Source of the DNA: Candidatus Ozemibacteraceae bacterium
GTDB lineage: Bacteria > Muiribacteriota > Ozemobacteria > Ozemobacterales > Ozemobacteraceae
Assembly (NCBI GenBank): GCA_937998695.1
Contig: CALLCO010000299.1
Span: 1 to 32,862, forward strand
Length of the DNA stretch: 32,862 nt
Direction: 5' to 3'
Every line of letters begins with the position of its first letter. Positions within the stretch are counted from its first letter, which is position 1. The notes below the pieces were generated by a model. The model saw only the letters and a program-made list of their open reading frames with translations. It was not told the origin of the DNA and made no database searches. A program made the translations under genes and the position numbers. Positions 4,861 through 26,277 of the stretch are shown here, one piece after another.

Positions 4861-6132
4861 ATGGCGCAACGCGGTATTCGTGAGTATCACGGCAAGAAGA
4901 TGATGGCGAGGCACCTGCCGACGTATCTGGGCGACGGGTTCGGGTACGACGGCAAGATCGTGCTGGTCGACCGGCACACCGACTGGGCCCAGTTGAAGGA
5001 AGAGAACCCCTGGCTGGGGAAAGAACCGCTGGTGGCCAAACCCGACCAACTGTTCGGCAAGCGAGGCAAGCACGGTCTGGTGCTGGTCAAGAAGAATTTC
5101 GACGAGACGAAGGCCTGGATCAAGGAACGGATGGGTAAGGAGACGAAGGTCGGCGAGATCACCGGCACCCTGACCCACTTCCTGATCGAGCCCTGCATCG
5201 CCCACGACCAGGAATACTACGTCGCCATCAAATCGGGAGCCGAAGGCGACACCATCTACTTCTCGCTCGAGGGCGGCATCAACGTCGAGGAGAACTGGGA
5301 GAAGGTCATCGCCATCCAGGTGCCGGTGCTCGAGGGCATCGAAGGCGTCGACGTCGAGAAGGCGCTGCCCAAAGACCTCGGCAAGAACCGCCAGATGGTG
5401 GCGACGTTCCTGGTCGGGTTGTACAAGATGTTCGCCGACCTGCACTTCGCCTATCTCGAGATCAACCCGTTCGCCATCGCCGACGGCAAGATCATCCCGC
5501 TCGACCTCGTGGCCAAGCTCGATGACACCGCCGAGTTCTGCGCCGGCAAGTTGTGGGGCGACGATATCGAGTTCCCGGCCGCCTTCGGCCGCGAACTGAC
5601 CCCCGAGGAGCAGAAGGTGCGCGAGCTCGACGCCCTGTCGGGCGCTTCCCTCAAGCTGACCCTGCTCAACCCCGACGGCCGGGTCTGGAACATGGTGGCG
5701 GGCGGCGGCGCCTCGGTCATTTTCGCCGATACCGTCTGCGATCTCGGCTACGCCAAGGAACTCGCCTTCTACGGCGAGTATTCGGGCGACCCGAGCACCC
5801 AGTTGACCTACGAGTATGCCAAGGTGGTCATGGACCTGATGACCCGCAAGGCCCATCCCGAGGGCAAGACCAAGGCCCTGATCATCGGCGGCGGCATCGC
5901 CAACTTCACCGACGTGGCCAAGACCTTCACCGGCATCATCATGGCCATGAAGGAATTCGCGGGCAAGCTGAAGAAGGTCAACACCAGGATCTACGTGCGC
6001 CGCGGCGGGCCCAACTACCACGAGGGGTTGGCCAATATCCGCAAGGCCGCCGAGGATCTGGGGCTGCCCATCGAGGTTCACGGTCCCGAGTACCACATGA
6101 CCCGCATCGTCAAAGATGCCTTGCAGGCATGA
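4861..6132 (+). CDS. aclB: ATP-citrate lyase, ATP-grasp/citrate-binding subunit
   Basis: ATP-citrate lyase cleaves citrate with CoA and ATP to acetyl-CoA and oxaloacetate. This 423-residue subunit corresponds to the N-terminal part of the animal enzyme (AclB in the Chlorobium naming, ACLA in plants, whose length it matches closely). An ATP-grasp fold covers residues 1-230, including a metal-site E-I-N-P at 200-203 and VAKLDD. The citrate-binding half contains GGGIANF (343-349) and RRGGPNY (380-386). Both closely match the animal enzyme's citrate site. I start at 4861 because AGGAG is 7 nt upstream; the frame is open further upstream, but only before the promoter. It is followed 28 nt later by the large subunit, the order known from green sulfur bacteria. 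The pathway direction (reductive TCA carbon fixation or acetyl-CoA supply) cannot be told from this window. Confidence 0.95.
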   Translation: MAQRGIREYHGKKMMARHLPTYLGDGFGYDGKIVLVDRHTDWAQLKEENPWLGKEPLVAKPDQLFGKRGKHGLVLVKKNFDETKAWIKERMGKETKVGEITGTLTHFLIEPCIAHDQEYYVAIKSGAEGDTIYFSLEGGINVEENWEKVIAIQVPVLEGIEGVDVEKALPKDLGKNRQMVATFLVGLYKMFADLHFAYLEINPFAIADGKIIPLDLVAKLDDTAEFCAGKLWGDDIEFPAAFGRELTPEEQKVRELDALSGASLKLTLLNPDGRVWNMVAGGGASVIFADTVCDLGYAKELAFYGEYSGDPSTQLTYEYAKVVMDLMTRKAHPEGKTKALIIGGGIANFTDVAKTFTGIIMAMKEFAGKLKKVNTRIYVRRGGPNYHEGLANIRKAAEDLGLPIEVHGPEYHMTRIVKDALQA

Positions 6133-6160
6133 CACCGCAGAGAAGGGAAGGAACGACACC

Positions 6161-8005
6161 ATGAAACGCCCCGATTACCTGCTGTTCGACCGCGACACCC
6201 GGTCCATCATCTTCGGCATGCAGACCAACGCCGTGCAGCGCATGCTCGACTTCGATTACTGTTGCAAGCGCGAGAAACCCTCGGTGGCGGCGATCGTCGA
6301 TCCCGGCCGCACCGACACCTTCAAGTGCTTCTACGGGAAGAAGGAGATCTTTGTCCCCGTCTACCCCGACCTCGCCGTTGCCTGCGCCAAACACCCCGAC
6401 GCCGATGTCCTGATCAACTTCGCCTCGTTCCGGTCGGCCTTCGAAACCACCAAGCAAGCGCTCGACCAGGACCAGCTGCGCACCATCGTGGTCATCGCCG
6501 AGGGCATCCCGGAGCGGTTCTCACGCCACCTGCGCGCCCTGGCGCTTCGTCGCCGCAAGGTCATCATCGGCCCCGCCACGGTCGGCGGTATCGCGGCCGG
6601 CGCCTTCAAGATCGGCAACACCGGCGGCACCATCGACAACATCGTGAGCAGCAAGCTGCACCGGGCCGGTTCGGTCGGCTTCGTCAGCAAATCCGGCGGC
6701 ATGTCGAACGAGGCCTACAACATCATCAGCCGCAACAGCGACGGCTTGTTCGAGGGCATTGCCATCGGCGGCGACGCTTACCCCGGTTCCACCCTCCTGG
6801 AGCATCTTCTCCGATTCGAAGCCAACCCGGCGATCAAGATGCTGGTCTGTCTCGGCGAGGTGGGCGGCGAAGAAGAGTGGCGGATCGTCGAAGCGGTCAA
6901 ACAGGGCCGCCTCAAGAAACCGCTGGTCATGTGGGTAACCGGCACCTCGATCAAGTACATGCCCAAGGGCATCCAGTTCGGGCATGCCGGCGCCAAGGCC
7001 GATGCCCGGCGCGAGACGGCAGAGGCCAAGAACCAGGCCCTGCGTGAGGTGGGTGTGATCGTGCCGGCCAGCTTCGACGACTTCGGCCAGGCGATCAAGC
7101 ACACCTTCGACAAGCTGGTGGCCGAGGGGCAGCACAAGCCCATCGCCGACGTCGACGCGCCACCCATTCCCATGAACTACAAGGAGGCGGTCGCCCGCAA
7201 CCTGGTGCGCCGTCCGACCAACTTCACCTGTACGATCTCCGACGACTCCGGCGACGAGCTTGTCTACGCCGGGCACAAGATCAGCAAGGTGATCTCCGAG
7301 AATTACTCTGTGGGCGAGGTGATCGGCCTGCTGTGGTTCAAGGAGCGCCTGCCCAAGTGGGCGGCCAGCTTCATGGAGAACGTGCTGAAGCTGTCGGCCG
7401 ACCACGGCCCCTGCGTCTCGGGCGCCCACAACACGATCGTCACCGCCCGCGCCGGCCGCGACCTGATGAGCGCCGTCGCCTCCGGGATCCTGACCATCGG
7501 CCCGCGCTTCGGCGGCGCTGTGGCCGGGGCCGCCCTGTCCTTCAAGGCCGCCTACGACGCGAAGATGACCCCCGACGAGTTCGTGGCCTCGATGAAGCAG
7601 AAGAACCAGAAGATCCAGGGGATCGGCCACCTGATCAAGAGCCTGAAGAACCCCGACATGCGCGTGGTGCTGCTGAAGAAGTTCGCCAAGGAGAACTTCC
7701 CGAAAACCCCGCTACTCGACTACGCCCTCGAGGTCGAGAAGCTCACCACCGCCAAGAAAGACACGCTCATCCTCAACGTCGACGGCGCCATCGGCGTACT
7801 CTCGGTCGACATGATGTACGGCCTCGGCTGGGACGAGGAACGCATCCAGAGCGTGGTCGACAGCGGCGGCCTGAACGGCCTGTTCCTGCTCGGCCGCACC
7901 ATCGGCATGATCGGCCACTACATGGACCAGACCCGCATGAAAGCGCCGCTCTACCGCCACCCCTGGGACGACGTCCTGTACGATCTGCCGCCTCAGGTCA
8001 AATAG
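6161..8005 (+). CDS. aclA: ATP-citrate lyase, CoA-ligase/citrate-synthase-like subunit
   Basis: This 614-residue subunit carries the catalytic steps: phosphohistidine, citryl-CoA formation and citryl-CoA cleavage. It equals the C-terminal half of animal ACLY. The succinyl-CoA-synthetase-like part (about 1-330) has the phosphorylated histidine at His275 in the motif FGHAGA. The citrate-synthase-like part (about 345-614) keeps His415 in ADHGP and Asp541 in NVDG, equivalent to the active-site His and Asp of citrate synthase and citryl-CoA lyase. The C-terminus GHYMDQ...YRHPWDD is typical. The start at 6161 is preceded by GGGAAGGAA; an upstream in-frame ATG at 6116 would overlap aclB and is less likely. 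The gene forms a two-gene operon with aclB and is followed immediately by a strong terminator. Gene letters are swapped in plants and fungi. Confidence 0.95.
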   Translation: MKRPDYLLFDRDTRSIIFGMQTNAVQRMLDFDYCCKREKPSVAAIVDPGRTDTFKCFYGKKEIFVPVYPDLAVACAKHPDADVLINFASFRSAFETTKQALDQDQLRTIVVIAEGIPERFSRHLRALALRRRKVIIGPATVGGIAAGAFKIGNTGGTIDNIVSSKLHRAGSVGFVSKSGGMSNEAYNIISRNSDGLFEGIAIGGDAYPGSTLLEHLLRFEANPAIKMLVCLGEVGGEEEWRIVEAVKQGRLKKPLVMWVTGTSIKYMPKGIQFGHAGAKADARRETAEAKNQALREVGVIVPASFDDFGQAIKHTFDKLVAEGQHKPIADVDAPPIPMNYKEAVARNLVRRPTNFTCTISDDSGDELVYAGHKISKVISENYSVGEVIGLLWFKERLPKWAASFMENVLKLSADHGPCVSGAHNTIVTARAGRDLMSAVASGILTIGPRFGGAVAGAALSFKAAYDAKMTPDEFVASMKQKNQKIQGIGHLIKSLKNPDMRVVLLKKFAKENFPKTPLLDYALEVEKLTTAKKDTLILNVDGAIGVLSVDMMYGLGWDEERIQSVVDSGGLNGLFLLGRTIGMIGHYMDQTRMKAPLYRHPWDDVLYDLPPQVK

Positions 8006-12799: not shown

Positions 12800-13126
12800 G
12801 GAAGCCTCCTCGTGGGGGTGGGTGAACGGATGCCGCCATTATAGAGATTCCCCGTACCAAACGCCACCCGTCACCCTTCAGGAGGGTCGAACTGGTCGCG
12901 GTGGACGCGGTTGTCGCAGCATCCGCGGGGCCCAGGGGCCATGCCAGGGAAAGTCGCATGGCCAGATGGTTCCCAGCCCTGGGGCAGACTTGGCGCGCAG
13001 GTGCGCCAGATCTGTCCAGGAGGGCGGAGAATCAGCCAGGACGGGCTTTGGATGAGACTTTATCGAGGCGGTACGGATCTTGGAGTATAGGTGCCCGCTC
13101 ACCGAAAACGAGCAGGAGGGGAAACC
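12800..13126. other. Divergent intergenic region between tricorn and the polytopic membrane protein
   Basis: These 327 nt have no supported gene. The left end carries the tricorn -10 box. On the plus strand a weak TATAGG (13086-13091) lies about 35 nt before the next start but lacks a matching -35. I saw no repeats or further sites in the rest. Confidence 0.45.
12838..12843 (-). promoter_or_regulatory. -10 box of the tricorn gene
   Basis: A perfect TATAAT reads on the minus strand about 39 nt upstream of the start, giving a predicted leader of about 30 nt. No good -35 box was found at 16-18 nt spacing, so an activator or another sigma factor may be needed. Confidence 0.45.
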
Positions 13127-14548
13127 ATGAACAGCGAGAAACGCGCCAAGACTTCCGAAGAACCGATGATCACCCACGCAAATCCCAGCCATGGTGACCA
13201 GGGCTCTTCCGAGCCGGTCGTCTCCACCGACCTGGCTCCCGCTGCCAACGGGAATGGCCGGCGGCCGCCGCCGTCGGTCCCGCCCACCCGGCGCTCCCGC
13301 CAGCAAGGCGGGGATGGCGAAGCGGCCGGCACGAACGGCGGCTTGTCCCAATGGTTCATCGACGCCAACCCCTTGTACCTGATCAGCGTGCTGCTGATGT
13401 TCCTGGGCCTGTTGCTGGTGAGTGGCGAAGCCAACACCAAGCAGGTCGGGGTCGAGACGGTGGCGTTGTTCTTCGGCATCCAGAATATCTATGAGATGTT
13501 GATGGTGGCGATGGGGATCTACCTGCTGCGCTCGTCGACCAACCTGCGGCATGGCAAGATCCTGCTGCTGTTCGTACTGATCTTCATGGCCGACCTGACC
13601 TTCTACCAGGTGCGCATCTCCGCCCTGAGCGCAGGATGGGGCCAGATGGTCTCGCTGCTCTATCTGTTGAGCGGAGCGGTTAAACTGGGCCTGGCGGTGC
13701 ACCTGCTCCGGATCACCCCCTATTGGGACCGCCTGCTCTTCCCCATGGGTGCCTTCGCCCTGATCTATTTCGCCCCCCAGTATGTCTACCATTCGATGGA
13801 CGCCGTAGGACGGGCGGGGGCCTCGGCCGCCGGGGTGCCCTTCTCGGGGGTCACCGAGATCTATATGATCTGGGTGCTGGCCGCGCTGATCCAGTTGCCG
13901 TTCATCGTCGCCACCTGGCGCCGCAGCAACCTCGAGGACAGCACCCCCCACGCCCTGCTCGGGACCGAGCAATCGTTCTACTGGGCGCTGCTGCTGGTGC
14001 CGTTCGTGGCCCTGCCGTTCCAGCTGGTCAAGAACATGATGGCGGATGCGATGGCCGCCAACCGGGCGATCGCCGACATGACCTTCGTCTACGTGCCCTA
14101 CCTGCTGGCTGGCCTGTTCTTCGTGCAAGCGTTCATCCAGAAGACCATCCGGCAGCAAGGGTGCCAGAACGGCTTCGACTTCGTCATGCTGATGGGCGTG
14201 GTCGGGTTCGCCTGGGTCACCTGGCAACCCGGCGAGATCATGGCCCCACTCGGCAAGGCCAACCTCCTGCTGGCGCTGGCCGGGCACATCGCCGTGGTCA
14301 TCACCCGCCAGAACCTCTACAGCGCGGGCTTCCTGACCATGATCGTGACCTGGCAGTTCTTCGGCTGGATCAAGGCCGGCATGCTGCGGGCCGCCGGGTT
14401 CCTGTCGGAACTGTCGAGCCTGGCCTGGGCTGGCATCCTGATGACCGGGTCGTTCATCTTCCTGGGCCTGGGCTTCCTGCTCAGCCTCAAGAGCGGCCGC
14501 CAGGGTGCCCTGGCCACAGGCGCCGGTTCCCCGGTCCAACCTTCCTGA
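13127..14548 (+). CDS. Polytopic membrane protein of unknown function
   Basis: This encodes 473 residues. The first 75 are polar, Pro/Ser/Arg-rich and probably disordered in the cytoplasm. The rest holds about 10-12 hydrophobic helices separated by short loops. The loop near FIQKTIRQQGCQNG is the most polar. No transporter or enzyme signature was recognised. The ATG at 13127 has AGGAGGGG ending 5 nt upstream. The gene appears monocistronic: a divergent gene lies behind it, and a set of strong hairpins follows its stop. The membrane core and Ala/Leu/Gly-rich loops resemble uncharacterised integral membrane proteins; no substrate can be proposed. Confidence 0.72.
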   Translation: MNSEKRAKTSEEPMITHANPSHGDQGSSEPVVSTDLAPAANGNGRRPPPSVPPTRRSRQQGGDGEAAGTNGGLSQWFIDANPLYLISVLLMFLGLLLVSGEANTKQVGVETVALFFGIQNIYEMLMVAMGIYLLRSSTNLRHGKILLLFVLIFMADLTFYQVRISALSAGWGQMVSLLYLLSGAVKLGLAVHLLRITPYWDRLLFPMGAFALIYFAPQYVYHSMDAVGRAGASAAGVPFSGVTEIYMIWVLAALIQLPFIVATWRRSNLEDSTPHALLGTEQSFYWALLLVPFVALPFQLVKNMMADAMAANRAIADMTFVYVPYLLAGLFFVQAFIQKTIRQQGCQNGFDFVMLMGVVGFAWVTWQPGEIMAPLGKANLLLALAGHIAVVITRQNLYSAGFLTMIVTWQFFGWIKAGMLRAAGFLSELSSLAWAGILMTGSFIFLGLGFLLSLKSGRQGALATGAGSPVQPS

Positions 14549-14784: not shown

Positions 14785-14816
14785 GGGCGCGCACCACATC
14801 CGGGAGGATTCTCGAC

Positions 14817-16823
14817 ATGCGACGGACGACCGTTTCCCCTGTTTCTGGCCGGGCCCTGCTGCTCACCTTTGGCTGGGTCCTGGCCGGCCTCGCCGCTGTC
14901 TGGGCGGGCAATGTCGGCCTCTATTCGGGGACGTTCGACCCCCTGCATGGGGGACATCTGCAGGTGATCGATCGGGCCATCGACCTGCTTGGCCTCGACA
15001 CCGTGTATCTGTTACCCAACGTCGATCCGGCCGACAAGCCGGAGGCCTCGCCCTTCGGGGTGCGGTATGAGATGGCCCGCCTGGTGGCCGCCCGGCACCG
15101 GGCGGTCCGCCTGCCGGAGCGAGAGCTGATCGAAGATCTGGCCCGACGCGCCCCCGGGACCTACGTGGCCGATCTGATGGCGGAGATCATGCGCCGGGAA
15201 GGGCCTTCCCACACGTTCTTCCAGATCTGCGGGACCGACTCCTTCCAGAAGATGGTCGACAAGGGCTTCCTGCCCAAAGCCGGAGAACGTCGCATCGTGG
15301 CCGTCATGGCCCGCAAGGGCTACGAGCAGACGGTGCCGGCCGCGGCCCGGCCTCTCGTCGCGGAGGGCCGCGTGCGGTTTTTCGACCCGGATGCCCCCGA
15401 GCTGAGTTCGACCCGCCTGCGGGCCATCTTCCAGGCCGGGGAAGAACCGTCGGTCAGCGAGCTGCCCCCCTATCTGTTGCGCTACGTACAGCGGCGGCTC
15501 CTGTATGGGGCGACCCGGCCCCGGTTGCGGATTCCGCAAGGGTATCGGGCGGTACGGGGACGGTTCCCGGCAGGGAAAGGGGAAGCCGGGCAGAGCCTTC
15601 CCCTCGCGTCCCTCTTCCCGCCCGCCGTGTTGTCCGATCCGCTGACCATCGATATCGACCGCTATCTCGATCACAAGATCCCACGCGAGATCCAGGATCT
15701 GATCTTGAGCCGGGGCCTGCGGGTCATCGTGGTGGGGGGTCTGCTCGATGAAGCGCTCGCCTGGCTCGGGGCCCAGGGCTTCGAACAGGGGACGGTCTTC
15801 GTCCCGCGCGATCAGGCACAGATCGACGACTGCTATGTCATCACCGCCCGCCAGCGCATTCCCTACCTGGTGGTCACCAATCTGTTCGGGCAGGACCGGC
15901 TGGTGCAGACCGTCTTGCAATTCGCCCAGCTGCTCACGCGCAACCTGCTCCCCGCGTCCCACCTCGAGGTCTACACGGTGGCCGGATTTTCACGGCTGTC
16001 CGAGCATCTGTGCCGGGAGGCCCTGCGTCGGCTGACCGCCGACCAGCGCACCCTGGTCGTGCTCGGATATCGGGGTTCCCTGAACATCGTGGTTTCCGAC
16101 CTGTTGAAATTCCTGGAACTGCGGGGCTTCGAGGGGTACGCCCGGGTCACCCTCGAGGAACTGGACCGGTTCATCCAGCCGTTCGGGCAGCGCCATGTCT
16201 TGAAGGGACAAGCGGGCGGCAATGCCAACTTCCCGTATTGGGAGTATTTCCTGCCTGATGCCACCGGGCGGCTGACACGGATCGTGGCCTTCCGCAACCT
16301 CTACGGCGACCAGACCGGCACCGTGCTGCGGGAACTGGCCCGCAAGGGGTTCCGCCAGGTGGCGATGTTCGGGAATGCCGGGGCCCTGGCGCCCGGCCTC
16401 GAAATCGGGGAAGTGGTCGCTCCCGTTCTGGTGACGGACGCGGGACGCGCGGTCCCCGTGCGCAACGCGGCGGTGGCCGACTACCGGGCGGTGGCCGCCA
16501 CGACGGTGCCCTCGGTGCTGGTGGAGACCTGGCCGTGGCTGGACGCCCGGCAGGGAGCCCAGGTCGTCGAGGTGGAATTGGCCCATGCCGCGGCCGTCTT
16601 GCGGGACTGGCCGGGAATGAAGCTCTATGCCGCGGTTCTGATTTCCGACCGGCCGGGGCAGGCGGACATTTCGGCCCGGGATGAGGATTCCCCAGAGTTC
16701 GTCGCGGCCAAGCGGGCGTTCTTCTTTCGCCTGTTGCAGCGGATCATCACCGGCGAGCCCGCTGTCTTCCCCCGGTTCACGCCCCCTGACCGGGCGGGCC
16801 GGTCCACGGCTCACCAGTGGTGA
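14817..16823 (+). CDS. Exported NadD-like nucleotidyltransferase fused to a nucleoside-phosphorylase-like domain
   Basis: This encodes 668 residues. The start at 14817 has GGGAGGA 9 nt upstream. Residues 1-30 form a signal peptide or anchor (Arg2, Arg3, Arg12, hydrophobic 13-28, cut after VWA30). Directly after it begins a NadD/CoaD-type nucleotidyltransferase domain (about 31-230). It has the nucleotide-binding SGTFDPLHGGH with His44 and His47, and SSTRLR at 197-202, the family's second ATP-binding motif. A linker leads to a region from about 275 to 655. Its last part resembles the phosphorylase superfamily: FGNAGAL at 518-524, LEIGEVVAP at about 528-536, VEVE at 584-587 and ISD at 609-611, at the spacing of nucleoside phosphorylases. 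NadD normally makes the dinucleotide in NAD synthesis inside the cell; ATP is scarce outside. The exported location is therefore odd, and the true substrate is unknown. No in-frame start exists at the NadD boundary that would remove the signal. Confidence 0.8.
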   Translation: MRRTTVSPVSGRALLLTFGWVLAGLAAVWAGNVGLYSGTFDPLHGGHLQVIDRAIDLLGLDTVYLLPNVDPADKPEASPFGVRYEMARLVAARHRAVRLPERELIEDLARRAPGTYVADLMAEIMRREGPSHTFFQICGTDSFQKMVDKGFLPKAGERRIVAVMARKGYEQTVPAAARPLVAEGRVRFFDPDAPELSSTRLRAIFQAGEEPSVSELPPYLLRYVQRRLLYGATRPRLRIPQGYRAVRGRFPAGKGEAGQSLPLASLFPPAVLSDPLTIDIDRYLDHKIPREIQDLILSRGLRVIVVGGLLDEALAWLGAQGFEQGTVFVPRDQAQIDDCYVITARQRIPYLVVTNLFGQDRLVQTVLQFAQLLTRNLLPASHLEVYTVAGFSRLSEHLCREALRRLTADQRTLVVLGYRGSLNIVVSDLLKFLELRGFEGYARVTLEELDRFIQPFGQRHVLKGQAGGNANFPYWEYFLPDATGRLTRIVAFRNLYGDQTGTVLRELARKGFRQVAMFGNAGALAPGLEIGEVVAPVLVTDAGRAVPVRNAAVADYRAVAATTVPSVLVETWPWLDARQGAQVVEVELAHAAAVLRDWPGMKLYAAVLISDRPGQADISARDEDSPEFVAAKRAFFFRLLQRIITGEPAVFPRFTPPDRAGRSTAHQW

Positions 16824-18147: not shown

Positions 18148-18858
18148 TCAGGAACCGCCGACCATCCGATGGCGCCGACGCAGCAGCTCCTCAGCGACGA
18201 TCAGGTCGATCTCATCGTCGATGTCGACCGATGATTCGCGTGACATCGCGAAGGCCACCGTTTCGGGGGAATCGAATCGCCGATTCCGTCTGATCCAGTC
18301 GGTGTGGGCGACATAGACCGCCCCGTTCAGGGAGACGTAAACGGGAAGATCCTGACGACGGGCAGCCCCCTCCACCGACGGCAGAATCGGACTCAGGCGG
18401 GCATCCTCGTCCAGGCGGAACGTCCAGTGGGGGTTCTTGGCCACCGGGCCCACCGAGACACAGGCGGGGGCCCCTCGATCGACGCACAACCGGATGGCCC
18501 CGTCGATGTCGGCGGCAGTGCGCAGGGGCGACGTGGGCTGCAGGAGGACGACCAGTTCATACCGCTCGGGCAGGGCATCGAGGGCATGCAACAGCGGGTC
18601 GATGCCCGGCGTGGTGTCAGCCGCCAGTTCGACGGGACGGACGAACGGCACCTCGCCGCCCAACGCCCGCATGGTGGCGATGATCTCGGGGTCTTCCGAA
18701 GACAGGATGGTGCGGTCGAGGAAGACCGACCCCTGCGCGGCGCGCCACGTCCATTCGAGCAGCGAACGCCCGGCGATGACGCGCAGGTTCTTGCGGGGGA
18801 TCCCCTTCGACCCGCCCCGGGCGGGAATGACGGCCAGAACTCGCTTTCCCTCGATCAT
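18148..18858 (-). CDS. neuA: Acylneuraminate (nonulosonate) cytidylyltransferase
   Basis: It activates a nonulosonic acid (sialic, legionaminic or related) with CTP to the CMP-sugar used by glycosyltransferases. The 236 residues are the usual length of short bacterial NeuA/LegF/PseF enzymes. The CTP-binding signature IPARGGSKGIPRKNL is at 11-25 and QPTSPLR at 107-113. The C-terminal SVDIDDEIDL (near 213-222) supplies the metal-binding Asp residues. The start at 18858 follows a 54-residue membrane protein by 31 nt in the same direction. It closes the cluster neuC-neuB-neuD-small-neuA. Sugar specificity cannot be read with confidence; the partner NeuC-type epimerase favours a sialic or legionaminic product over pseudaminic acid. 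Confidence 0.92.
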   Translation of the reverse strand: MIEGKRVLAVIPARGGSKGIPRKNLRVIAGRSLLEWTWRAAQGSVFLDRTILSSEDPEIIATMRALGGEVPFVRPVELAADTTPGIDPLLHALDALPERYELVVLLQPTSPLRTAADIDGAIRLCVDRGAPACVSVGPVAKNPHWTFRLDEDARLSPILPSVEGAARRQDLPVYVSLNGAVYVAHTDWIRRNRRFDSPETVAFAMSRESSVDIDDEIDLIVAEELLRRRHRMVGGS

Positions 18859-18889
18859 TGGTTGTCCTCCCGCCGTCCCCAGGCGTTCT

Positions 18890-19054
18890 TCAGTTTCCGC
18901 TCGGGGGCCTGAGAGAGCTTTTCAGCCAGGGAATCCCGACGGACACAGCCCCTGCCCCCCAAAACCCGGCCAGCCCACGCAGATAGACCAGGGTTGCCCC
19001 CAGACCGAAAAGCGCGGTCCCCATTCCCAGACCGATCTGGCGATGGTCCGACAT
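18890..19054 (-). CDS. 54-residue membrane protein inside the neu cluster
   Basis: I start it at the ATG at 19054 (MSDHRQIG) because GAGGGAG lies about 6 nt upstream. The frame is open further to 19117, but that start lacks a site. A polar N-terminus of about 8 residues is followed by a Gly-rich hydrophobic stretch (about 9-27) and a second one (about 30-43), so it could be a hairpin in the membrane. It lies 75 nt after neuD and 31 nt before neuA, which implies co-transcription. No family was recognised; it may help couple sugar synthesis to the membrane, but that is a guess. Confidence 0.55.
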   Translation of the reverse strand: MSDHRQIGLGMGTALFGLGATLVYLRGLAGFWGAGAVSVGIPWLKSSLRPPSGN

Positions 19055-19129
19055 CCCGATCTCCCTCGTTCCCTTCGGCCCGCGCACGGCAAGATCCGGG
19101 CGGCCTCTCTTGCCCATGAGGCCACGGAA

Positions 19130-19774
19130 TCAGCCCGACCTGGCCGGCGCCAGGGGCCGGGCGGGAACGCCAACCACCGTCACCCCGGGTGGAACATCGC
19201 GGGTGACGACGGCGCCGGCCCCCACCACGCACCCAGCGCCCAATCGCCGGCCCTGCAGCACGGTGGCGCCCACCCCGACGTGGACCTCGTCCTCGACGAC
19301 GACGTCGCCCGACAGCGTGACCCCGGGCGCCAGGTGGACGTGGGCCCCGATGCGGCAAGTGTGATCGACGGACGTGCGGGTGTTGACGATGGTGTCCGCG
19401 CCGATCACGACGTCGGGCTGCAGCACGCATCCTGCCATGATCTGGGCCCCTTCCCCCAGCGTGACGCGACTGCCCAGCACCGCCGAGGGGTGGATCAGCG
19501 TGGCGAAGGTGAAGCCCTTCTCCTTGAAGGTGCGGAAGATGCCGGCCCGACGGGCCATCGACCGGACCGACCCGACGCCGTTGACCAGTTCGATCGCCTG
19601 GGGGTCGAGACCGAACAGGGCGTTATTCGGCCCCAGGAAGGGAATGCCTTCCCAGGCGGGGCCGGCCGGAGTTTCCTGGGCGGAAACCCCTTGCAGCGAT
19701 CGCCCCGTCAGACGGATGACATCGAGCAGCACGGAACCGTGGCCGCCCGCCCCGATCAGGATCACAGGTCGCAT
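19130..19774 (-). CDS. neuD: Sialic-acid-type sugar O/N-acetyltransferase (NeuD/PglD family)
   Basis: The 214-residue product has a PglD-type N-terminal Rossmann-like domain beginning with VILIGAGGHG. From about residue 95 a left-handed beta helix of hexapeptide repeats follows (IHPSAVLGSRVTLGEG, VVIGADTIVNT). It ends in the usual GVPARPL tail. The catalytic His of the helix is probably in VDHTCRIG. Family members acetylate amino sugars or sialic acids with acetyl-CoA. Two adjacent ATGs exist: the one at 19774 is 7 nt from GGAGG, while the one at 19777 overlaps the stop of a short open frame upstream (TGATG). It sits between the neuB synthase and neuA, as in many sialic and legionaminic acid loci. 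Confidence 0.88.
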   Translation of the reverse strand: MRPVILIGAGGHGSVLLDVIRLTGRSLQGVSAQETPAGPAWEGIPFLGPNNALFGLDPQAIELVNGVGSVRSMARRAGIFRTFKEKGFTFATLIHPSAVLGSRVTLGEGAQIMAGCVLQPDVVIGADTIVNTRTSVDHTCRIGAHVHLAPGVTLSGDVVVEDEVHVGVGATVLQGRRLGAGCVVGAGAVVTRDVPPGVTVVGVPARPLAPARSG

Positions 19775-19776
19775 CA

Positions 19777-19992
19777 TCAAGCCTCCGTCACGAACGAACC
19801 GGCCGGCCCATGCCCTCGGCCATCGGCCATCGGCAGGCAAGCGCCATGCCCACGCGTGCCCATGGCGAAGGCGATGGCGACTGGACACTCATCTCGTCGG
19901 GCAAACATCTTGGCCATCATTCCAGCGGTCACATTGACCACGCTGCGCCAGGGCAGTGAGTGATCGATGGTCTCCAGGACTGCCAGGTCATC
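19777..19992 (-). other. Open frame continuing neuB after its stop codon, ending at the neuD start
   Basis: The 218-nt gap between neuB and neuD is open for 71 codons in the same frame as neuB, directly after its TAG. It ends at a TGA that overlaps the first ATG of neuD (TGATG). Codons are rich in G/C at the third position, like the neighbours. The peptide reads DDLAVLETIDHSLPWRSVV at first, then becomes Met/Gly/His-rich. The first internal ATG (19920) would give 47 residues. It may be a small coupled gene, a lost C-terminal extension of NeuB, or chance. Confidence 0.3.
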
Positions 19993-21084
19993 CTAGTCCT
20001 CCACCGGTTCGTCCTCGGCGAAGGCGCGGCGAGCGGGCTTGCCGAGGAGGTCGAAATACCGCATTGGCGAAAGGCCGGTTCCCGGCCTCTTGATCCCAAG
20101 GTTCTCGGGAGTGAACACTTCGCCCACCGCGATCGGGCGCCGCGCCACCAGGCTCTTGCGGGCGGCGGCGCGGTTGCGTATCTCGGCCGCCGCCAGAGGC
20201 CGGGTGGGGTCACCGAGCCCGGCCTCGACGGCCCGGATACCCTCGATCATGGCCCGCAACTCGTCGGGCTCGAGCGAGGCGCGGTGGTCGGGCCCTGGCA
20301 GGGTCCGGTCGAGGGTGAAGTGCTTTTCGACGATCGTCGCCCCGAGGGCGACCGCCGCGAGGGGAAGGGCGATCCCAGGGGTGTGATCGGAAAACCCGAC
20401 CTCGAGGCCGAAGGCGGCCCGCAGGGTCGCCAGCGCCCGCAGGTTCGCATCGGCAAAGGCGGCGGGATACTCGGTCGTGCAGTGCAGCACCCGCACCCGT
20501 TCGGCCACGCGCGCGCGAGCCGTCCGATCGAGCCAAGCCGCCTGGAACGCGGCCAGCGACGGGGAAACCGACCCCGAGGTCGTTCCCGCCTCGGTCACCC
20601 CATAGGCTATCACCCCAAGCGCGGTCTCTATCTCGGCCAGCGTCGCCATGCCCGTCGACAGGATCACCCGGCAACCACTGCGGGCCGCCGCCAACAGCAA
20701 CAACGGGTTGGTCAGCTCGCCCGAGCCCAGTTTGAGCAAATCGACCTGCAGGTCGCAAACGAGAAACTCCAGGCTCGCGTCGTCGAAGGGCGAAGCCAGG
20801 AACCCGACCCCCGCCTCGCGGCAAGCCCTGTGCAGTTCACGAACATCGTCGGGCGTCAGTTCCAGATCGCGCAACATGTCATACTGGGACTGGCCCTGAG
20901 GACCGTTTTTGGCCTGGTAGTCGGCCTTCGCGGCCGTCCGCGTCACCAGGGCATCAGCCCGAAAAACCTGGAATTTGACGTAATCGGCTCCCGCTCTGGC
21001 GGCGGCAGCCACCATCTCGCGGGCCCGAACGAGCGAGCCGTTGTGGTTGACGCCAGCTTCGGCGATGATGAGGGTGCGGGTCAT
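19993..21084 (-). CDS. neuB: N-acetylneuraminate/legionaminate synthase
   Basis: It condenses phosphoenolpyruvate with an N-acyl mannosamine-type sugar to form a nonulosonic acid. The 363-residue product has a TIM-barrel NeuB domain (about 1-285) starting with IIAEAGVNHNG. Further motifs are YVKFQVF, LSTGMA, LHCTTEYPA, VGFSDHTPG and IVEKHFT, which hold the metal and PEP ligands. A C-terminal SAF (antifreeze-like) domain from about 300 carries the KSLVARRPIAVGE signature. Its ATG overlaps the stop of neuC by 4 nt (ATGA), so the two are translationally coupled. The CTTEYP motif and the NeuC partner fit the sialic/legionaminic branch. The window contains a second, clearly different synthase at 29729-30772. 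Confidence 0.93.
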   Translation of the reverse strand: MTRTLIIAEAGVNHNGSLVRAREMVAAAARAGADYVKFQVFRADALVTRTAAKADYQAKNGPQGQSQYDMLRDLELTPDDVRELHRACREAGVGFLASPFDDASLEFLVCDLQVDLLKLGSGELTNPLLLLAAARSGCRVILSTGMATLAEIETALGVIAYGVTEAGTTSGSVSPSLAAFQAAWLDRTARARVAERVRVLHCTTEYPAAFADANLRALATLRAAFGLEVGFSDHTPGIALPLAAVALGATIVEKHFTLDRTLPGPDHRASLEPDELRAMIEGIRAVEAGLGDPTRPLAAAEIRNRAAARKSLVARRPIAVGEVFTPENLGIKRPGTGLSPMRYFDLLGKPARRAFAEDEPVED

Positions 21085-22262
21085 AATGCCCCTTTCTCGA
21101 GGTCGTGGAAGGCCTTGGTCAGGCAGTTCCGCAAGGGGAAGGTCTTCAGCACGCGCACGACCTCGCTGGCCACCTCGCCATCGCCGTAAGGGGACACGAC
21201 CCGGCGACAAGCCGCCCGGAAGGCCGGACGCAGCGCCTTGGCGATGGCGGCCTCGATGGCCGCGGGCGTCTCGGCGCAGTCGATGACCGAGGCGGCGCGG
21301 GGCCTTCCCTTCTGACGGTTCCCGATATTGACCGAGGGCACTTTCAGGAAGGGAGCCTCGATGATGCCGCTCGAAGAGTTGCCGATGACCGCCGCTGCTA
21401 GCCGCATGACCGCCACGTAACGGGCCACTCCCAGCCCTTCGACGAGCAACACCCGGTTGCGGTGCCGACCGGCGAACGCCGCGATGCGTTCGCGCAGGGC
21501 GCCTGCCCGCGGGTCGGCGTTTGGGCAGGTCCAGAGGAGGCGGGCCGCGGGAAAGCGTTCGAGGGCTTCCAGCAGCGCGTCGAGCCCGGCCTGGCCGGCA
21601 TCGTCACGCAAAGTCTCGGGATGCCAGGTGACGAGGAACAAGGGCGGCTCGAGGGAAAACTGCAGGTCGCGCTCGAGGGTGGTGCGACTGATACGGGGGG
21701 CGCGCCGCACCGCCTCGAGGCCGGGGGCCCCGACGGTGAAGACCCGTTCCGGGGACTCACCGAGCTGGATGACCCGCCGCCGGAACTCTTCGGCCGCCAC
21801 GAAATGCAAGTGGGCCATCTTGGTGAGGGAATGCCGGATCGCCTCGTCGATGGCCCCTTCGGTGCGCTCACCTCCATGCAGGTGGGCGATCGGCAGACGG
21901 GCCACCAGCGCCGCCTGGGCCGCCGCGAAAATCTCGTAGCGGTCCCCCAGCACCAGCAGCAGGTCGGGACGGCATCGGTCATACACCTCGGCAAACCCGA
22001 TGGTTCCCAAGGCGATCGCCTTGGCGACCGCGACAGGCGAGTCAGTGGCCAGCAACATCTCGACCCGGTCGCCGATCGACAGACCGGCTCGTTCCATTTC
22101 CGCCAGAGCCGCCCCGCGGCCACCCACCAGGTGGGTGCCGGTGACGACCAGGTGCAGGTCCAGGGCCGGGTCGGCCCGGATCGCCTTCATGATCCAAAAC
22201 AGCAAGCCGAAATCAGCCCGCGATCCGGTGACGACACAGATTTTCCGTCTTTTCACACCCAT
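21081..22262 (-). CDS. neuC: UDP-N-acetylglucosamine 2-epimerase (hydrolysing), NeuC/LegG type
   Basis: The enzyme epimerises and hydrolyses a UDP-HexNAc to give ManNAc, or the diacetamido sugar in the legionaminic pathway, as the substrate for NeuB. It is 393 residues, the usual length. GT-B-like features include the start KICVVTGSRADFGLL, HLHGGERTEGAIDE for UDP-sugar binding and catalysis, VTWHPET, and GNSSSGIIEAPF near the C-terminus. The ATG at 22262 has AGGACGG just upstream. It is the first gene of the neu cluster and shares an ATGA overlap with neuB. Its long leader carries a 9-bp tandem repeat and a 12-bp palindrome. Whether the substrate is UDP-GlcNAc or a bacillosamine derivative is not decidable here, because no dehydratase or aminotransferase is in the window. 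Confidence 0.93.
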   Translation of the reverse strand: MGVKRRKICVVTGSRADFGLLFWIMKAIRADPALDLHLVVTGTHLVGGRGAALAEMERAGLSIGDRVEMLLATDSPVAVAKAIALGTIGFAEVYDRCRPDLLLVLGDRYEIFAAAQAALVARLPIAHLHGGERTEGAIDEAIRHSLTKMAHLHFVAAEEFRRRVIQLGESPERVFTVGAPGLEAVRRAPRISRTTLERDLQFSLEPPLFLVTWHPETLRDDAGQAGLDALLEALERFPAARLLWTCPNADPRAGALRERIAAFAGRHRNRVLLVEGLGVARYVAVMRLAAAVIGNSSSGIIEAPFLKVPSVNIGNRQKGRPRAASVIDCAETPAAIEAAIAKALRPAFRAACRRVVSPYGDGEVASEVVRVLKTFPLRNCLTKAFHDLEKGAL

Positions 22263-22289
22263 CCGTCCTGTTCGGTGTAGCTCGAGCTA

Positions 22290-22343
22290 GCCGGGTCGGC
22301 CGGGTCAGCCGAGTCTGCCAGGTCTGCCGGGTCGGCGGGTGGA
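22290..22343. repeat. 9-bp tandem repeat in the neuC leader
   Basis: About six units of the type GCCGGGTCG (22290-22298, 22299-22307, 22308-22316, 22317-22325, 22326-22334, and a diverged 22335-22343). They lie between the predicted promoter and the neuC start. Confidence 0.65.
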
Positions 22344-22424
22344 CCGGGCAGGCGCGGGCTGGCGCGAGCGGGCGACGCCCTGTGCTCCGCTTTGCCATCC
22401 CCGCTGGGTCCAGGGTCCCCTAGC

Positions 22425-22453
22425 AGTCTACGTCGCTCTCCCCATCCGCGCAA
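22425..22453 (-). promoter_or_regulatory. Candidate promoter of the neu cluster
   Basis: On the minus strand TTGCGC (22453-22448), 17 nt, then TAGACT (22430-22425). The -35 resembles that of the pse operon (TTGCGA). The leader to neuC would be about 156 nt. Confidence 0.4.
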
Positions 22454-22488
22454 CCACCCAGCCGACAGCCTGCCATTCATTCCGCGGG

Positions 22489-22640
22489 TGAGCCTGTGGC
22501 ATGAATCGTTTTTTTGTTCGTCGTCTCCATATCGCCCCTAATCCAGTCGGCATTTCCACATGAATGAGCCTGTGGCATAAATCGGTTTTTCGCTCGTTGT
22601 GTACATTGCGCCCCTGATCCGCTAGGCATCTCCGAATGGA
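22489..22640 (+). repeat. Two tandem copies of the dispersed 76-nt repeat
   Basis: Copy 1 is 22489-22564 and copy 2 is 22565-22640. Both begin TGAGCCTGTGGCAT(G/A)AATCG, share a T-rich stretch, CGCCCCT(A/G)ATCC in the middle, and GGCAT(T/C)TCC 59 nt from the start. Confidence 0.75.
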
Positions 22641-22730
22641 CGGTACATGAAAATGGCTGTTTTGGGCATTCGCGCAACAGGCTCGAATAGGACAGGGAAG
22701 CGCACTGGTTGGGGCGTTCATGCCACAGCC
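22641..22730 (-). repeat. Two partial inverted copies of the dispersed repeat
   Basis: On the minus strand one begins at 22730 (GGCTGTGGCATGAACG) and the next at 22684 (GAGCCTGTTGCGCGAATG). Only the first 15-20 nt match the full copies well. Together with the two plus copies they form an inverted arrangement just downstream of the beta-barrel gene. Confidence 0.5.
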
Positions 22731-22772
22731 ACGGTTGGAAACGGATTTCGCGATTTCGGGGGGGAGTGCGGC

Positions 22773-23921
22773 TCAGAACTCGAAGCCGAAGGAGAGGCTG
22801 TAGCGGCGGTCTTCGCGGTCGCCGGGGCGGGGGCCCCGTTCGTCGGAATAGGTGGCGACATCGAGGCGAGCCTCGCGGAACTCGGCGGTGAACCCGGCGG
22901 TCGGATAGCCGCCGCGCAACCCGCCGCGCACCTTGAGCCAGGGATAGAGCAGGGCTTCGGCCCCCAGGCGCAGGCGCGAGAAGAAGGTGCCGTCGGTGCC
23001 GGTGACGTCCCAGAGGTCGGCGGCCAACAGCAGCTTGCGCTTGCGTTCGGGTGGGCCGCTGAGCGGCTTGATCGTCGCTCCGAGGGCCCATTCCCGGCGT
23101 AACCGGCCAATCGACGGGTCGATCTCCGACTCGAAGATGTTGGCGACCGCTAGGCCCAACGTGGTGTCCCAGTCGTTCTTCAACCGCCAGAAGGTCCCGG
23201 CGTCGAAATCGGCGGTGGCACCCTTGCGTTGAGCATCGCGCAGGTCGCTTTCGGAGAGCCGGGCAAAGTCGCGGGCATCGTATTCACGATCGAGGGAACG
23301 ACGCGACAGGAACTTCATCGTCGCTCCCCACCAGCCATAGGCGATGTCATTGAAGAGGTTGCGCTTTCCTCCGCGGAGAGGGCGGGCCACCGATCCCAGC
23401 AGGACCGAATCGATGTCACCCCGCACTTGAATGCGTGGACTGGTCGGCCGGACGACCCCGATCTCGGTCATCGCTTGGTATAAGAAAGCTCCCGCGAATC
23501 CGTGGCCGCCCTGGCCGCCGAGGTAGTAGGCCAGGTTGCCGGCCACCAGGCGGGCCTGCTGCCCCATCACATCCGACAGTTTGGCGTTGTTGGCGGCGCG
23601 CGACTCGGGCGTGTCAGCATCCGAAAGCCCGTCGGTGCGATTCTCGACCCGGCGGAAGTCCTGGTTCATCTCGCCATGGGCGTTGACCACCGCGTATCCC
23701 TTGTCGGTGATCTGGCACAGCCCGGCTGGGTTGGCGAACAGGGCCTGATGGTCGTCGGCGACAGCCACCACCGCCCCGCCCATGCCCTGAGTGCGCGGCG
23801 TTTCGTAGAACAGGCGATGGGCATAGCGGGCGTGGGCGGCGGGCGCCCAGAACAACCCCAGGCCCAAAGCGACCAACAAGCAGAGACGCATGAGGACCCC
23901 ATGGACAGACCGACGGCGCAT
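22773..23921 (-). CDS. Probable outer-membrane beta-barrel protein
   Basis: The 382-residue product has a signal peptide (1-31, RRR then a hydrophobic core, cut after AHA). It opens with TPRTQGMGGAVVAVADDHQALFANPAGL, the N-terminal pattern of PorV/FadL-like (OmpP1 or UPF0164-type) barrels: a Gly-Met-Gly turn, then Asp, then NPAGL. Alternating hydrophobic strands follow. The last residue is Phe in YSLSFGFEF, the classical signal for outer-membrane insertion. Its ATG overlaps the stop of the upstream lipoprotein gene by one base (TGATG), with GGAGGGG about 7 nt upstream, so the two are coupled. Cargo or function is unknown; a role in export or surface anchoring is inferred only from the fold type. 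Confidence 0.75.
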   Translation of the reverse strand: MRRRSVHGVLMRLCLLVALGLGLFWAPAAHARYAHRLFYETPRTQGMGGAVVAVADDHQALFANPAGLCQITDKGYAVVNAHGEMNQDFRRVENRTDGLSDADTPESRAANNAKLSDVMGQQARLVAGNLAYYLGGQGGHGFAGAFLYQAMTEIGVVRPTSPRIQVRGDIDSVLLGSVARPLRGGKRNLFNDIAYGWWGATMKFLSRRSLDREYDARDFARLSESDLRDAQRKGATADFDAGTFWRLKNDWDTTLGLAVANIFESEIDPSIGRLRREWALGATIKPLSGPPERKRKLLLAADLWDVTGTDGTFFSRLRLGAEALLYPWLKVRGGLRGGYPTAGFTAEFREARLDVATYSDERGPRPGDREDRRYSLSFGFEF

Positions 23922-24772
23922 CAGTCATCCCCTCCGTCGAGGTGCCGGATGGCCGCTGCGAAGCTGGCCACATTGACCTCGAAATAGGGGTGGGCCGCCT
24001 TCAGCCGCTCGACGAGATCGCCGACGGCCCGGATCGTGGCCCGGTTGCTGTCGGTGTAGGTGCCCGTGAAGGTCTGGCCAATGACCGGAGAGATCAGATT
24101 CCAGGTGTCACCCCGCCCGTCGAAGCCAATGGCGAGGTCGGCGAAAACCTGCTCGAGGGTCTCACCGTCGCTGGCGGGGCCGGTCACCAGATCCCGATAG
24201 AGGATGGGCCAAGGCGGAGTTTTCCCATCATTCGTGTCGAAATCGATCTCGTCGTTGGCGTCGAGGCGGCGGTTGTGGTTGGTGTCGTATTTGTCGATCA
24301 ACAGCCGGGTGGCGATGCCGACCTTCATCAGGGCCCGGGAAATGCGGTCGGGGCGGTCAGGCCGGGCCAGGCGGCTCATCCAGGTCAGGCCCTGGGCCAA
24401 CAGCTGCCGGTCACGAGCCAGCCAGGCGGTGCGGAAACAGACCGGGCCGCGATCGTAGGGCCCGATGCCATTTTGCAGGGCGTCAAGACTGCGCAACACG
24501 GCGAACCCCGCCTGGCCGGCCAGAGTCTCGCCCTTTCCTCGAATGACCGGGTCGCCGGCGTTCCCGCGCCCCAGCAACGTATCGAACCGCTCGGCGGCGG
24601 CGGCATAATCGGCCGAGGCGAGGGCGAGATTGCCTTCGGCGAGCAGATCCTCGTCGGTGCGGGCGGTCAGGGCGGAGTCGATCCCGTCATACAGATTGCA
24701 CCCGACCATCCCCGGCAGGCACAGCAGAATGCCCACCGCCAGAACGCCCACCTGGAAGGAAACGCGGGTCAT
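23921..24772 (-). CDS. Lipoprotein with an EF-hand-like loop
   Basis: The 283-residue product starts with a lipoprotein signal (hydrophobic 8-24, MVGC with the acylated Cys25). A helical TPR-like region follows (AEGNLALASADYAAAAERFDTLLGRGN, about 45-71). An EF-hand-like calcium loop lies at 163-174: Asp163, Asn165, Asn167, Asp171 and Asp174 in the right spacing. The C-terminal third is unassigned. GGGAG lies upstream of the ATG at 24772. It is coupled to the downstream beta-barrel gene (TGATG), which suggests an envelope pair. No named family was recognised. Confidence 0.72.
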   Translation of the reverse strand: MTRVSFQVGVLAVGILLCLPGMVGCNLYDGIDSALTARTDEDLLAEGNLALASADYAAAAERFDTLLGRGNAGDPVIRGKGETLAGQAGFAVLRSLDALQNGIGPYDRGPVCFRTAWLARDRQLLAQGLTWMSRLARPDRPDRISRALMKVGIATRLLIDKYDTNHNRRLDANDEIDFDTNDGKTPPWPILYRDLVTGPASDGETLEQVFADLAIGFDGRGDTWNLISPVIGQTFTGTYTDSNRATIRAVGDLVERLKAAHPYFEVNVASFAAAIRHLDGGDD

Positions 24773-25065
24773 GCAGGCTCCCGATCCGAGATTGCACCCC
24801 CCTCATCGGCAGAAGGCGCAAGATCGTTGAGTCATAGAACGGTGGGAACCATCGGTGGCCCGCGCCAGAGGCCAGCCGCCTGGGAAACGCCGCGCGTTCC
24901 CCAGGCCAGAAACAGGGTCCAGGGCCTTTGGCGGCACCACTCATCCATGCGAACATCCGCATCCGATAGCCCGGCCTGTCCTACGCCCGGCCTGTCCTAC
25001 GCCCGGCCTGCCTCACGCGCGGCCTGCCTCACGCCCGGCCTGCCTCACGCCCGGCCCGCTCCACG
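24773..25065. other. Gap between the lipoprotein and phosphatase genes
   Basis: The 272-nt gap (24773-25044) contains most of a 16-bp tandem array that continues into the phosphatase 3' end. No gene or clear terminator is visible. A TTGCGC with TGCAAT at 19-nt spacing upstream of the lipoprotein gene is too loose to call. Confidence 0.4.
24970..25065. repeat. 16-bp tandem repeat overlapping the phosphatase 3' end
   Basis: Six units of the type CCCGGCCTGCCTCACG. The units at 24970-24985 and 24986-25001 are identical, and the rest differ by a few bases. The stop codon of the phosphatase gene (25045-25047) lies in the fifth unit. The 16-bp unit is not a multiple of three. Confidence 0.8.
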
Positions 25066-26277
25066 CCCGTCCAACACCAGGACGGTCAGATCGTCGACCG
25101 GGTCGGAAGCGTGGGTATAGGCGAAGACGTGATCGACCAGAGCCCGCGCATGATCGGCGGGGGCCAGGGACGCATGACGTTGGCAGACATCGAGCAACCC
25201 TGCCTCGCCCAGGCGGCGTCCCTGCGGATCAGGGGACTCGGTCATACCATCCGAGCAGATGATGAGGCGCTTCCCGGCGAAATCGGGCAGATCGAGCGTT
25301 GCAAACTCCCGCGCGTCAAACAACCCGATGAGATCGCTGGGCAGTTCGAGAAACCGCCCGACCCCTTCGCCATCGAGCAGGATGGGGGGCGGATGCCCGG
25401 CATTGGCCAGTTGCAGTCGTCCCCCGATCGGATCGTAGACGAACGCCTGGGCCGAGTAATAATGGAAGGTCGAGCCCCCCTGCTCGTAGATGCGGGCCAG
25501 ATGCCGCAGGATCTCGACCGGCGAGGTCACCTTCCCCTCGAGGGGAATGAGATTGCTGACGAGGAAGCCGGTCACCAGCGCCGAGGCCACCCCATGCCCG
25601 GAGACGTCGGCCAGCAGACCGGCTACCGTCCCGCCAGCCCCGGGGAAGAGCCGGGTGAGATCGCCGCCGACCATCTCCGCCATACAGCAGGCATAGCCAA
25701 GGAACGGCCAGCGCGCCAGGTGCTCGGGGCCGGGTAGCCACTGGCGTTGCACCGTCTGGGCCAGTTCGAGATCGCGCACCTCGGACGCCGCTTCCCGAAA
25801 GACTTCGAGACCACCGACCACGACTCCGGCGGCGTCCTTGATCGGGGTGACCGAGACGGCCATCGGCACCCGCCCCCCTTCCTTGGAACAACTGAACACG
25901 AAGGTGCGGGGCGTGCCCGCCCGCCCCAGGTCCATGGCGATCGCGAGCGGGCAGACGGTCGAGTCGCAGAGACTGCGCCCATGCCGATCGACATGGCTGA
26001 GGACATTGTCGTGACAGCTCCGTCCCACGACCTCGGCCGCCGTGAAGCCGGTGATGCGGGCCGCCGCCTTGTTCCAGAACAGAATCCGGCGGGCGCGGTC
26101 GGTGATGTAGACCCCCAGATCCTCGAGGTTATCGAGCACCTCGCGCATCGAGAGGGAAAGAGCACCGAGCGGATCGCTGTCGCCTGGCGCCACGCCGATC
26201 GCCCGGTCGCTTCCCGGCCGGGACTGAGCCCCGGACGGCGGCCGGTCAGGCCCCGAATTCTTGCGTGAGCTGGTCAT
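25045..26277 (-). CDS. PAS domain-PP2C (SpoIIE/RsbU-type) serine phosphatase
   Basis: This encodes 410 residues. A disordered start (1-40) is followed by a PAS domain at about 45-165, reading LGVYITDRARRILFWNKAAARITGF, with Cys residues (SCHD, LCDSTVCP) resembling sensor PAS domains. A PP2C-type phosphatase of the SpoIIE group spans about 170-405. The metal motifs are intact: GGDL, ADVSGHG, CSDGMTE and DDLTVLVL. Such enzymes dephosphorylate anti-anti-sigma factors or related STAS proteins in response to a signal. Its ATG lies inside the Maf gene upstream (32-nt overlap, different frame), so it is the last gene of the pse operon. This suggests it may tune motility or surface glycosylation. The C-terminal residues come from a tandem repeat. 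Confidence 0.9.
   Translation of the reverse strand: MTSSRKNSGPDRPPSGAQSRPGSDRAIGVAPGDSDPLGALSLSMREVLDNLEDLGVYITDRARRILFWNKAAARITGFTAAEVVGRSCHDNVLSHVDRHGRSLCDSTVCPLAIAMDLGRAGTPRTFVFSCSKEGGRVPMAVSVTPIKDAAGVVVGGLEVFREAASEVRDLELAQTVQRQWLPGPEHLARWPFLGYACCMAEMVGGDLTRLFPGAGGTVAGLLADVSGHGVASALVTGFLVSNLIPLEGKVTSPVEILRHLARIYEQGGSTFHYYSAQAFVYDPIGGRLQLANAGHPPPILLDGEGVGRFLELPSDLIGLFDAREFATLDLPDFAGKRLIICSDGMTESPDPQGRRLGEAGLLDVCQRHASLAPADHARALVDHVFAYTHASDPVDDLTVLVLDGRGAGRA

Follow-up and report, generated by a model that had tools for sequence, protein, structure and literature searches.

Organization of the locus

The window, which is the whole stretch of 32,862 nt analyzed here, contains an ORF whose product (hereafter the window protein) comprises a signal peptide and three domains, designated N, M and P. 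This ORF, its parts and the gene upstream are as follows:

13091–14548, + strand: upstream ORF, a membrane protein by eye, unmatched in Pfam; its counterparts in the other two genomes of the genus are 85 % and 61 % identical
14803–14807, + strand: ribosome binding site (GGAGG), 9 nt before the ATG, from the sequence
14817–16823, + strand: whole ORF, 668 aa, signal-N-M-P, from the sequence and dN/dS
14817–14906, + strand: signal peptide, residues 1–30, from a hydropathy test with controls, its end placed by eye
14910–15512, + strand: N, NadD-like nucleotidyltransferase domain, residues 32–232, with H44xxH47, K74 and SSTxxR (197–202), from Pfam, NCBIfam, PDB and alignment
15600–16037, + strand: M, orphan domain, residues ca. 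262–407, from hhalign, PDB and Pfam
16038–16781, + strand: P, phosphorylase/nucleosidase-superfamily domain, residues ca. 408–655, with GNAGAL, VEVE (E587) and ISD (D611), from Pfam, profile and hhalign

An ortholog from Candidatus Ozemobacter sibiricus, L005, is 83 % identical to the window protein. Comparison with L005 gave a dN of 0.109 and a dS of 0.74 for the whole ORF, and each domain was constrained (for N, M and P, respectively, dN 0.071, 0.067 and 0.110, and dS 0.788, 0.52 and 0.897), the 31-codon signal region being less constrained than the rest (dN 0.198, dS 0.285). Judging from these rates, the ORF is coding and under purifying selection.

The first-pass annotation had proposed that this ORF joins a signal peptide, a NadD-like domain and a phosphorylase-like domain. 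This architecture was confirmed, by Pfam and NCBIfam for N, by a profile for P and by hydropathy for the signal, and the motifs it named are present in the protein (H44/H47, SSTRLR 197–202, GNAGAL 519–524, LEIGEVV 528–534, VEVE 584–587 and ISD 609–611).

A NadD-like domain with an altered pocket

Domain N is homologous at the family level to NadD (TIGR00482 / PRK00071; PF01467). Pfam family CTP_transf_like (PF01467) matched residues 35–203 with an E value of 6.4e-13, the NadD models of NCBIfam matched with E values down to 2.8e-20, the NadD hallmarks GxFxPxHxxH and SSxxxR are present, and the best PDB matches were NadD. The HxxH and SST motifs were each conserved in 13 of 14 exported N domains, with L002 as the exception. 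Unlike NadD, the exported family has a signal peptide, is fused, forms a separate clade, lacks an equivalent of W117, and scores under the cut-offs: N of the window protein missed those of all the NadD equivalog models listed from NCBIfam (best score, 73.2 bits versus 187; TIGR00482, 61.8 versus 112.45) and passed that of the domain model TIGR00125 (31.3 versus 27.7).

An excerpt of PMC8035330 describes residues W117 and H45 of E. coli NadD as stacking on the nicotinate ring. The Trp of this pocket was absent from all 14 exported N domains, being replaced in 13 and deleted in one, and was present in 13 of 15 other NadD. The KWY of B. subtilis NadD fell, in a profile alignment, opposite non-aromatic positions of the exported family, and the (S/P)YT of other NadD was replaced in exported N domains by a different, longer stretch. 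Since the nicotinate-stacking Trp is missing from every exported N domain, the earlier suggestion of NAD as a target is weakened, and NAD does not appear to be a favored substrate.

The same genome encodes a separate NadD whose C-terminal part differs and whose gene adjoins an ORF that is Obg-like by eye; YqeK, HD and Obg are the names that we presumptively gave, by eye, to the extension of this copy and to its neighbor ORF. This copy resembles the window protein in that a C-terminal extension follows the NadD domain, but it has no signal and its HD-like extension matches neither M nor P. Another gene of this genome (L002, 1423–2655 in G000:C280) codes for a signal-bearing NadD-like paralog that ends within M and in which the second His and SST have been lost; L013, a relative from G013 cut at its 5′ end, is similar to L002 and also lacks SST.

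Domains M and P

Domain M is an orphan: a PDB search gave nothing better than an E value of 0.59, Pfam matches occurred only at E values of 0.03 or worse, each in one of 12 members, and hhalign gave 0.2 % against each of two PNP profiles and 1.1 % against P. Given these hhalign values, an internal duplication that would make M a partial copy of the phosphorylase domain was unsupported. The ca. 380-residue region, in the last part of which the first-pass annotation had noted phosphorylase hallmarks, consists of two units, M (ca. 262–407) and the phosphorylase-like P (ca. 408–655).

Domain P shares the glycine loop, VExE and SD with the PNP_UDP_1 superfamily (MTAP/PNP, MTA/SAH nucleosidase, HpnG), from which it differs in being exported, in being preceded by M in the fused proteins, and in lying under the Pfam gathering score when taken alone (PF01048, E value 1.2e-4, 22 bits versus a gathering score of 25.1); HpnG was among its weak NCBIfam matches (E value 1.7e-4). 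At E ≤ 0.01, an 11-row profile retrieved 41 PDB sequences; every one is a phosphorylase or nucleosidase, matched over P positions, and the top match is an MTA phosphorylase (1e-7). In hhalign, P matched 19 PNP-type sequences (chosen by PF01048) with 93.2 % and an E value of 3e-7, and 11 short PNP-like ORFs with 98.5 % and an E value of 1.8e-15, although the latter comparison leans towards a match because those ORFs were picked by the family's own profile. From the profile and hhalign results, we assign P to the phosphorylase superfamily, in line with the first-pass annotation.

The Glu of VExE was conserved in 20 of 21 P domains and the Asp of SD in 19 of 21; in the window protein these are E587 and D611, which we take to be the ribose-binding Glu and the catalytic Asp. 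An Asn replaces the Asp in L010 and L096, and L010 also lacks the Glu. None of 26 rows has the phosphate-binding Arg before the glycine loop, but since the 19 PNP-type rows, inspected by eye, likewise lack it at that place, its absence is unusable as proof of a hydrolase.

Export signal

Export was evaluated as the highest mean hydropathy over 10 residues near the N-terminus, using the chosen starts. A strongly hydrophobic N-terminus was found in 20 of 20 family proteins (scores 2.2 to 3.7) versus 0 of 15 other NadD, 10 of which scored 1.34 or less upstream of the domain and 5 of which have only 6 to 8 residues there. We term these controls housekeeping because they match N more weakly and lack M-P; their set differs by two rows from the 15-row set used in the tree below. 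The test omitted L013 (cut at its 5′ end), L041, L106, and L090 and L095, which start outside the fetched stretch; the N-termini of L041 and L106 look hydrophobic. As for the fused proteins, the hydrophobic N-terminus was present in all 11 measured (L010 being cut at its 5′ end), and the twelfth, L041, has the same N-terminus as L040, so that both the fusion and the signal-like N-terminus are conserved among homologs. The window protein has a hydropathy peak of 2.2 with a net charge of +3 before it, and the end of its signal is uncertain, lying at residue 23 by a crude rule and at residue 30, between AWA and GN, by eye. Lipobox-like cysteines occur in L014 and L042. These results indicate that the family is apparently exported by means of a Sec signal-like N-terminus.

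A mis-called start, which would turn the protein into a cytoplasmic NadD without a real signal peptide, is hardly credible and largely refuted. The starts were inferred from sequence, and in L006 the chosen ATG is preceded by two others, at distances of 9 and 21 codons; however, the L006 frame is closed by a stop 24 codons before the chosen ATG, and every candidate start yields a product that includes the hydrophobic segment. Also against this reading, a ribosome binding site precedes the chosen ATG of the window ORF, the hydrophobic segment recurs throughout the proteins measured, and the genome has its separate NadD.

Distribution and phylogeny

A tree constructed from 14 exported and 15 other NadD domains, without the 5′-cut L013, placed the exported domains on one side of a branch with support 100/99. 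This clade takes in both domain orders as well as a protein from outside the phylum, and the long branches of the tree were those of L010, L002 and G226.

In the phylum surveyed, which we take to be Riflebacteria, N is fused to M-P in 11 proteins from 10 of 39 genomes (G000, G001, G009, G010, G011, G016, G017, with two, G028, G029 and G030), three of which (G028, G029 and G030) have the order M-P-N; the profile matches of G001 and G010:C53 run into a stop at their ends. M-P stands without N in L008, from G010, and in two diverged proteins with a weak M, L098 from G036 (E value 7e-4) and L097 from G037:C4 (E value 3e-3), and P alone was detected in G037:C5 and G038. N occurs without P in L002, in the 5′-cut L013 and in L009. 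The follow-through of the survey left out the fragments G016:C52:168603 and G001:C156:6, the CCA-type gene of G030, and G038:C649.

Outside the phylum, scoring at most four candidates per genome, the fusion appeared in one of 342 genomes, G226. The profile was matched at E ≤ 1e-6 by 34 of these genomes, in 33 cases over P positions only, as an ordinary phosphorylase would; the match from G226 spans M and P (E value 4.9e-69), and its ORF is signal-N-M-P, the product sharing 37 % identity with the window protein along 617 residues. A set of 386 genomes related to G226, overlapping in part with the 342, yielded only G226 at 1e-20. A mobile-element origin was also considered and rejected: tblastn on plasmid records (E ≤ 1e-4) gave 11 records, over the NadD region only, none of them covering 80 %.

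Short ORFs resembling N-M-P remnants with large internal losses occur in G000:C178 (L100, 1092–1613) and G006 (L099, 1504–2025), suggesting gene decay. In two other ORFs, from G010 (L091, 505–2814) and G005 (L093, 1–2334), a phosphorylase-like domain is accompanied by a different front part, and the N-termini look signal-like by eye. A long ORF from G046, outside the phylum (L111, 1–1974), carries a P-like domain towards its end, with no front part recognized.

A probable second nucleotidyltransferase partner

In G005, G010, G011, G017, G028 and G029, larger ORFs carry matches to M and P late in their sequence, M being weak in these CCA-type proteins (E values 9e-9 to 0.03). The front parts of L089, L092, L094, L095 and L108 align, with invariant GG-T-VRD and DxD; that from G010 lies outside the fetched stretch and hence is not in this five-row alignment. 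Compared by hhalign with 25 CCA-adding-type reference sequences, which are PF01743 matches from the same phylum picked by motif, the front part gave 94.4 %, with an E value of 9.4e-8 for that single comparison; control comparisons with PNP, N and the short PNP-like ORFs gave 0.07 %, 0.70 % and 0.31 %. Pfam matches to PF01743 were below the cut-off (E values 0.032, 0.04 and 0.073 in three proteins), and no PDB match was obtained at E ≤ 0.5. The N-termini of L089, L092, L094 and L108 are signal-like. From the hhalign comparison and its controls, it is likely that a CCA-adding-like front, unrelated to N, is tied to a related exported M-P end.

Three of these genes lie in a three-gene cluster (L094, 94–6576 in G011; L089, 1853–8069 in G028; and L108, 2–6280 in G029), formed by an ORF related to phosphonate-type periplasmic binding proteins (Pfam E value 4.6e-44 for that from G011), a gene whose product combines a phosphorylase domain with a radical SAM region, and the gene for the exported CCA-like nucleotidyltransferase with M-P. 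The radical SAM region had below-cut-off Pfam matches in two of the clusters and none listed in that of G028, whose protein is 70 % identical to its counterpart from G029. An ORF situated ca. 6 kb upstream of the NadD-type fusion in G016 (L112, 544–1731) is 33–36 % identical to the binding-protein ORFs of the clusters; the same comparison found no counterpart in the window.

Genomic neighborhood

Within the genus, the surroundings are common to the three genomes and include the upstream membrane protein, a Tricorn-type peptidase and sugar-acid genes. Beyond the genus, where the ORFs of 15 loci were compared, no neighbor was strongly shared across genera, and a conserved operon was therefore discarded. 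An esterase gene adjoins the fusion in both G010 and G011, which are one genus, and cross-genus matches around NadD-type fusions were weak (one ORF from G011 to two from G030, with 26–27 % identity).

Possible function

NadD-type and CCA-adding nucleotidyltransferases, which normally transfer a nucleotide from an NTP, are regarded as cytoplasmic since they use ATP or CTP, and beyond the cytoplasm ATP is presumably scarce. An exported NadD-like fusion is thus odd, because the usual fuel of NadD would be scarce there. A search of the open-licence literature gave no title on an exported NadD or on a nucleotidyltransferase-phosphorylase fusion. The occurrence of an exported NadD-type clade and of exported CCA-like proteins, both on an M-P end, would imply nucleotide chemistry outside the cytoplasm.

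We give a probability of about 0.5 to the window protein being a Sec-exported bifunctional enzyme for the two-step processing of a nucleotide-linked substrate outside the cytoplasm. Domain N, with a NadD fold, intact ATP-site motifs and an altered acceptor pocket, would make a phosphoanhydride to a nucleotide or break one with pyrophosphate, P would break the base-ribose bond, and M may tether N and P or bind the substrate. This proposal builds on features read directly from the sequences (the fusion, the signal-like N-terminus, their conservation, the motifs and the altered pocket), and would additionally have both sites active, on the same substrate and in a defined order of steps. That NadD-type and CCA-type partners are both tied to an exported base-removing domain suggests sequential action on one substrate, and the existence of the fusion in both orders, N-M-P and M-P-N, also counts for a joint enzyme. 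Against it, the energy source is unexplained given the scarcity of ATP outside, active-site residues are lost in L002, L010, L013 and L096, no neighbor gene is strongly conserved across genera, and M is weak in the CCA-type proteins; moreover, joint action would not be obligatory, because M-P exists without a nucleotidyltransferase (L008 and the diverged L097 and L098).

The order of the two steps is more tentative. Attachment of a nucleotide followed by removal of its base, by which the acceptor would be left with a ribosyl-phosphate group, is a possible direction; we give it a low probability, but prefer it to salvage because it covers both unrelated nucleotidyltransferase partners and has a precedent in HpnH-HpnG. 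In the relevant excerpt of PMC12583986, HpnH adds the adenosyl and the putative phosphorylase HpnG then removes the adenine, converting adenosylhopane to ribosylhopane; the logic of attaching a nucleoside and stripping its base is alike, but HpnH is a radical SAM enzyme and the likeness is an analogy only. Extending the attach-then-strip direction to an extracytoplasmic system, in which both kinds of exported nucleotidyltransferase with M-P would leave a phosphoribosyl mark on a lipid, glycan or protein acceptor at the surface, is speculative and unlikely; if true, this would represent a novel type of surface modification, requiring nucleoside triphosphates outside the cytoplasm.

An exported salvage enzyme, somewhat unlikely in our opinion, would use N in the reverse or hydrolytic direction on released dinucleotides of the NAD, CoA or ApnA type, with P freeing the base for uptake. 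NadD-type reactions are reversible and P belongs to the right superfamily, but pyrophosphate is also scarce outside the cell, the CCA-type partner is poorly explained, and the absence of the NaMN-stacking Trp from every exported N domain argues against NAD in particular. Attached and trimmed nucleotides would constitute a new surface modification, and salvaged ones, an unusual nutrient route. The residues lost in L002, L010, L013 and L096 would fit a protein whose chemistry has decayed and which serves as a nucleotide-binding sensor or has a structural role; this is quite unlikely for the family, since most members keep the motifs (13 of 14 N domains and 19 to 20 of 21 P domains). The first-pass annotation had raised an effector role, and a protein secreted as an effector or toxin, which would affect other cells through nucleotidylation or by depleting nucleotides, would agree with the signal-like N-terminus, the multiple copies in some genomes and the variable partner domains. 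However, Pfam recognized no delivery or immunity gene among the 23 window ORFs scanned, covering all but the last ca. 2.8 kb, besides a below-cut-off TraF_2 match (22776–23921, − strand); this, together with purifying selection and surroundings conserved in the three genomes of the genus, makes such a role very unlikely.

Other genes in the window

The window also contains ATP-citrate lyase genes (4678–8005), which could fit a reductive TCA cycle. Sugar-acid surface glycan genes occupy positions 18148–28231, and include those for a cytidylyltransferase, a hexapeptide transferase, NeuB, a UDP-GlcNAc 2-epimerase and a Maf/MptE-type protein.
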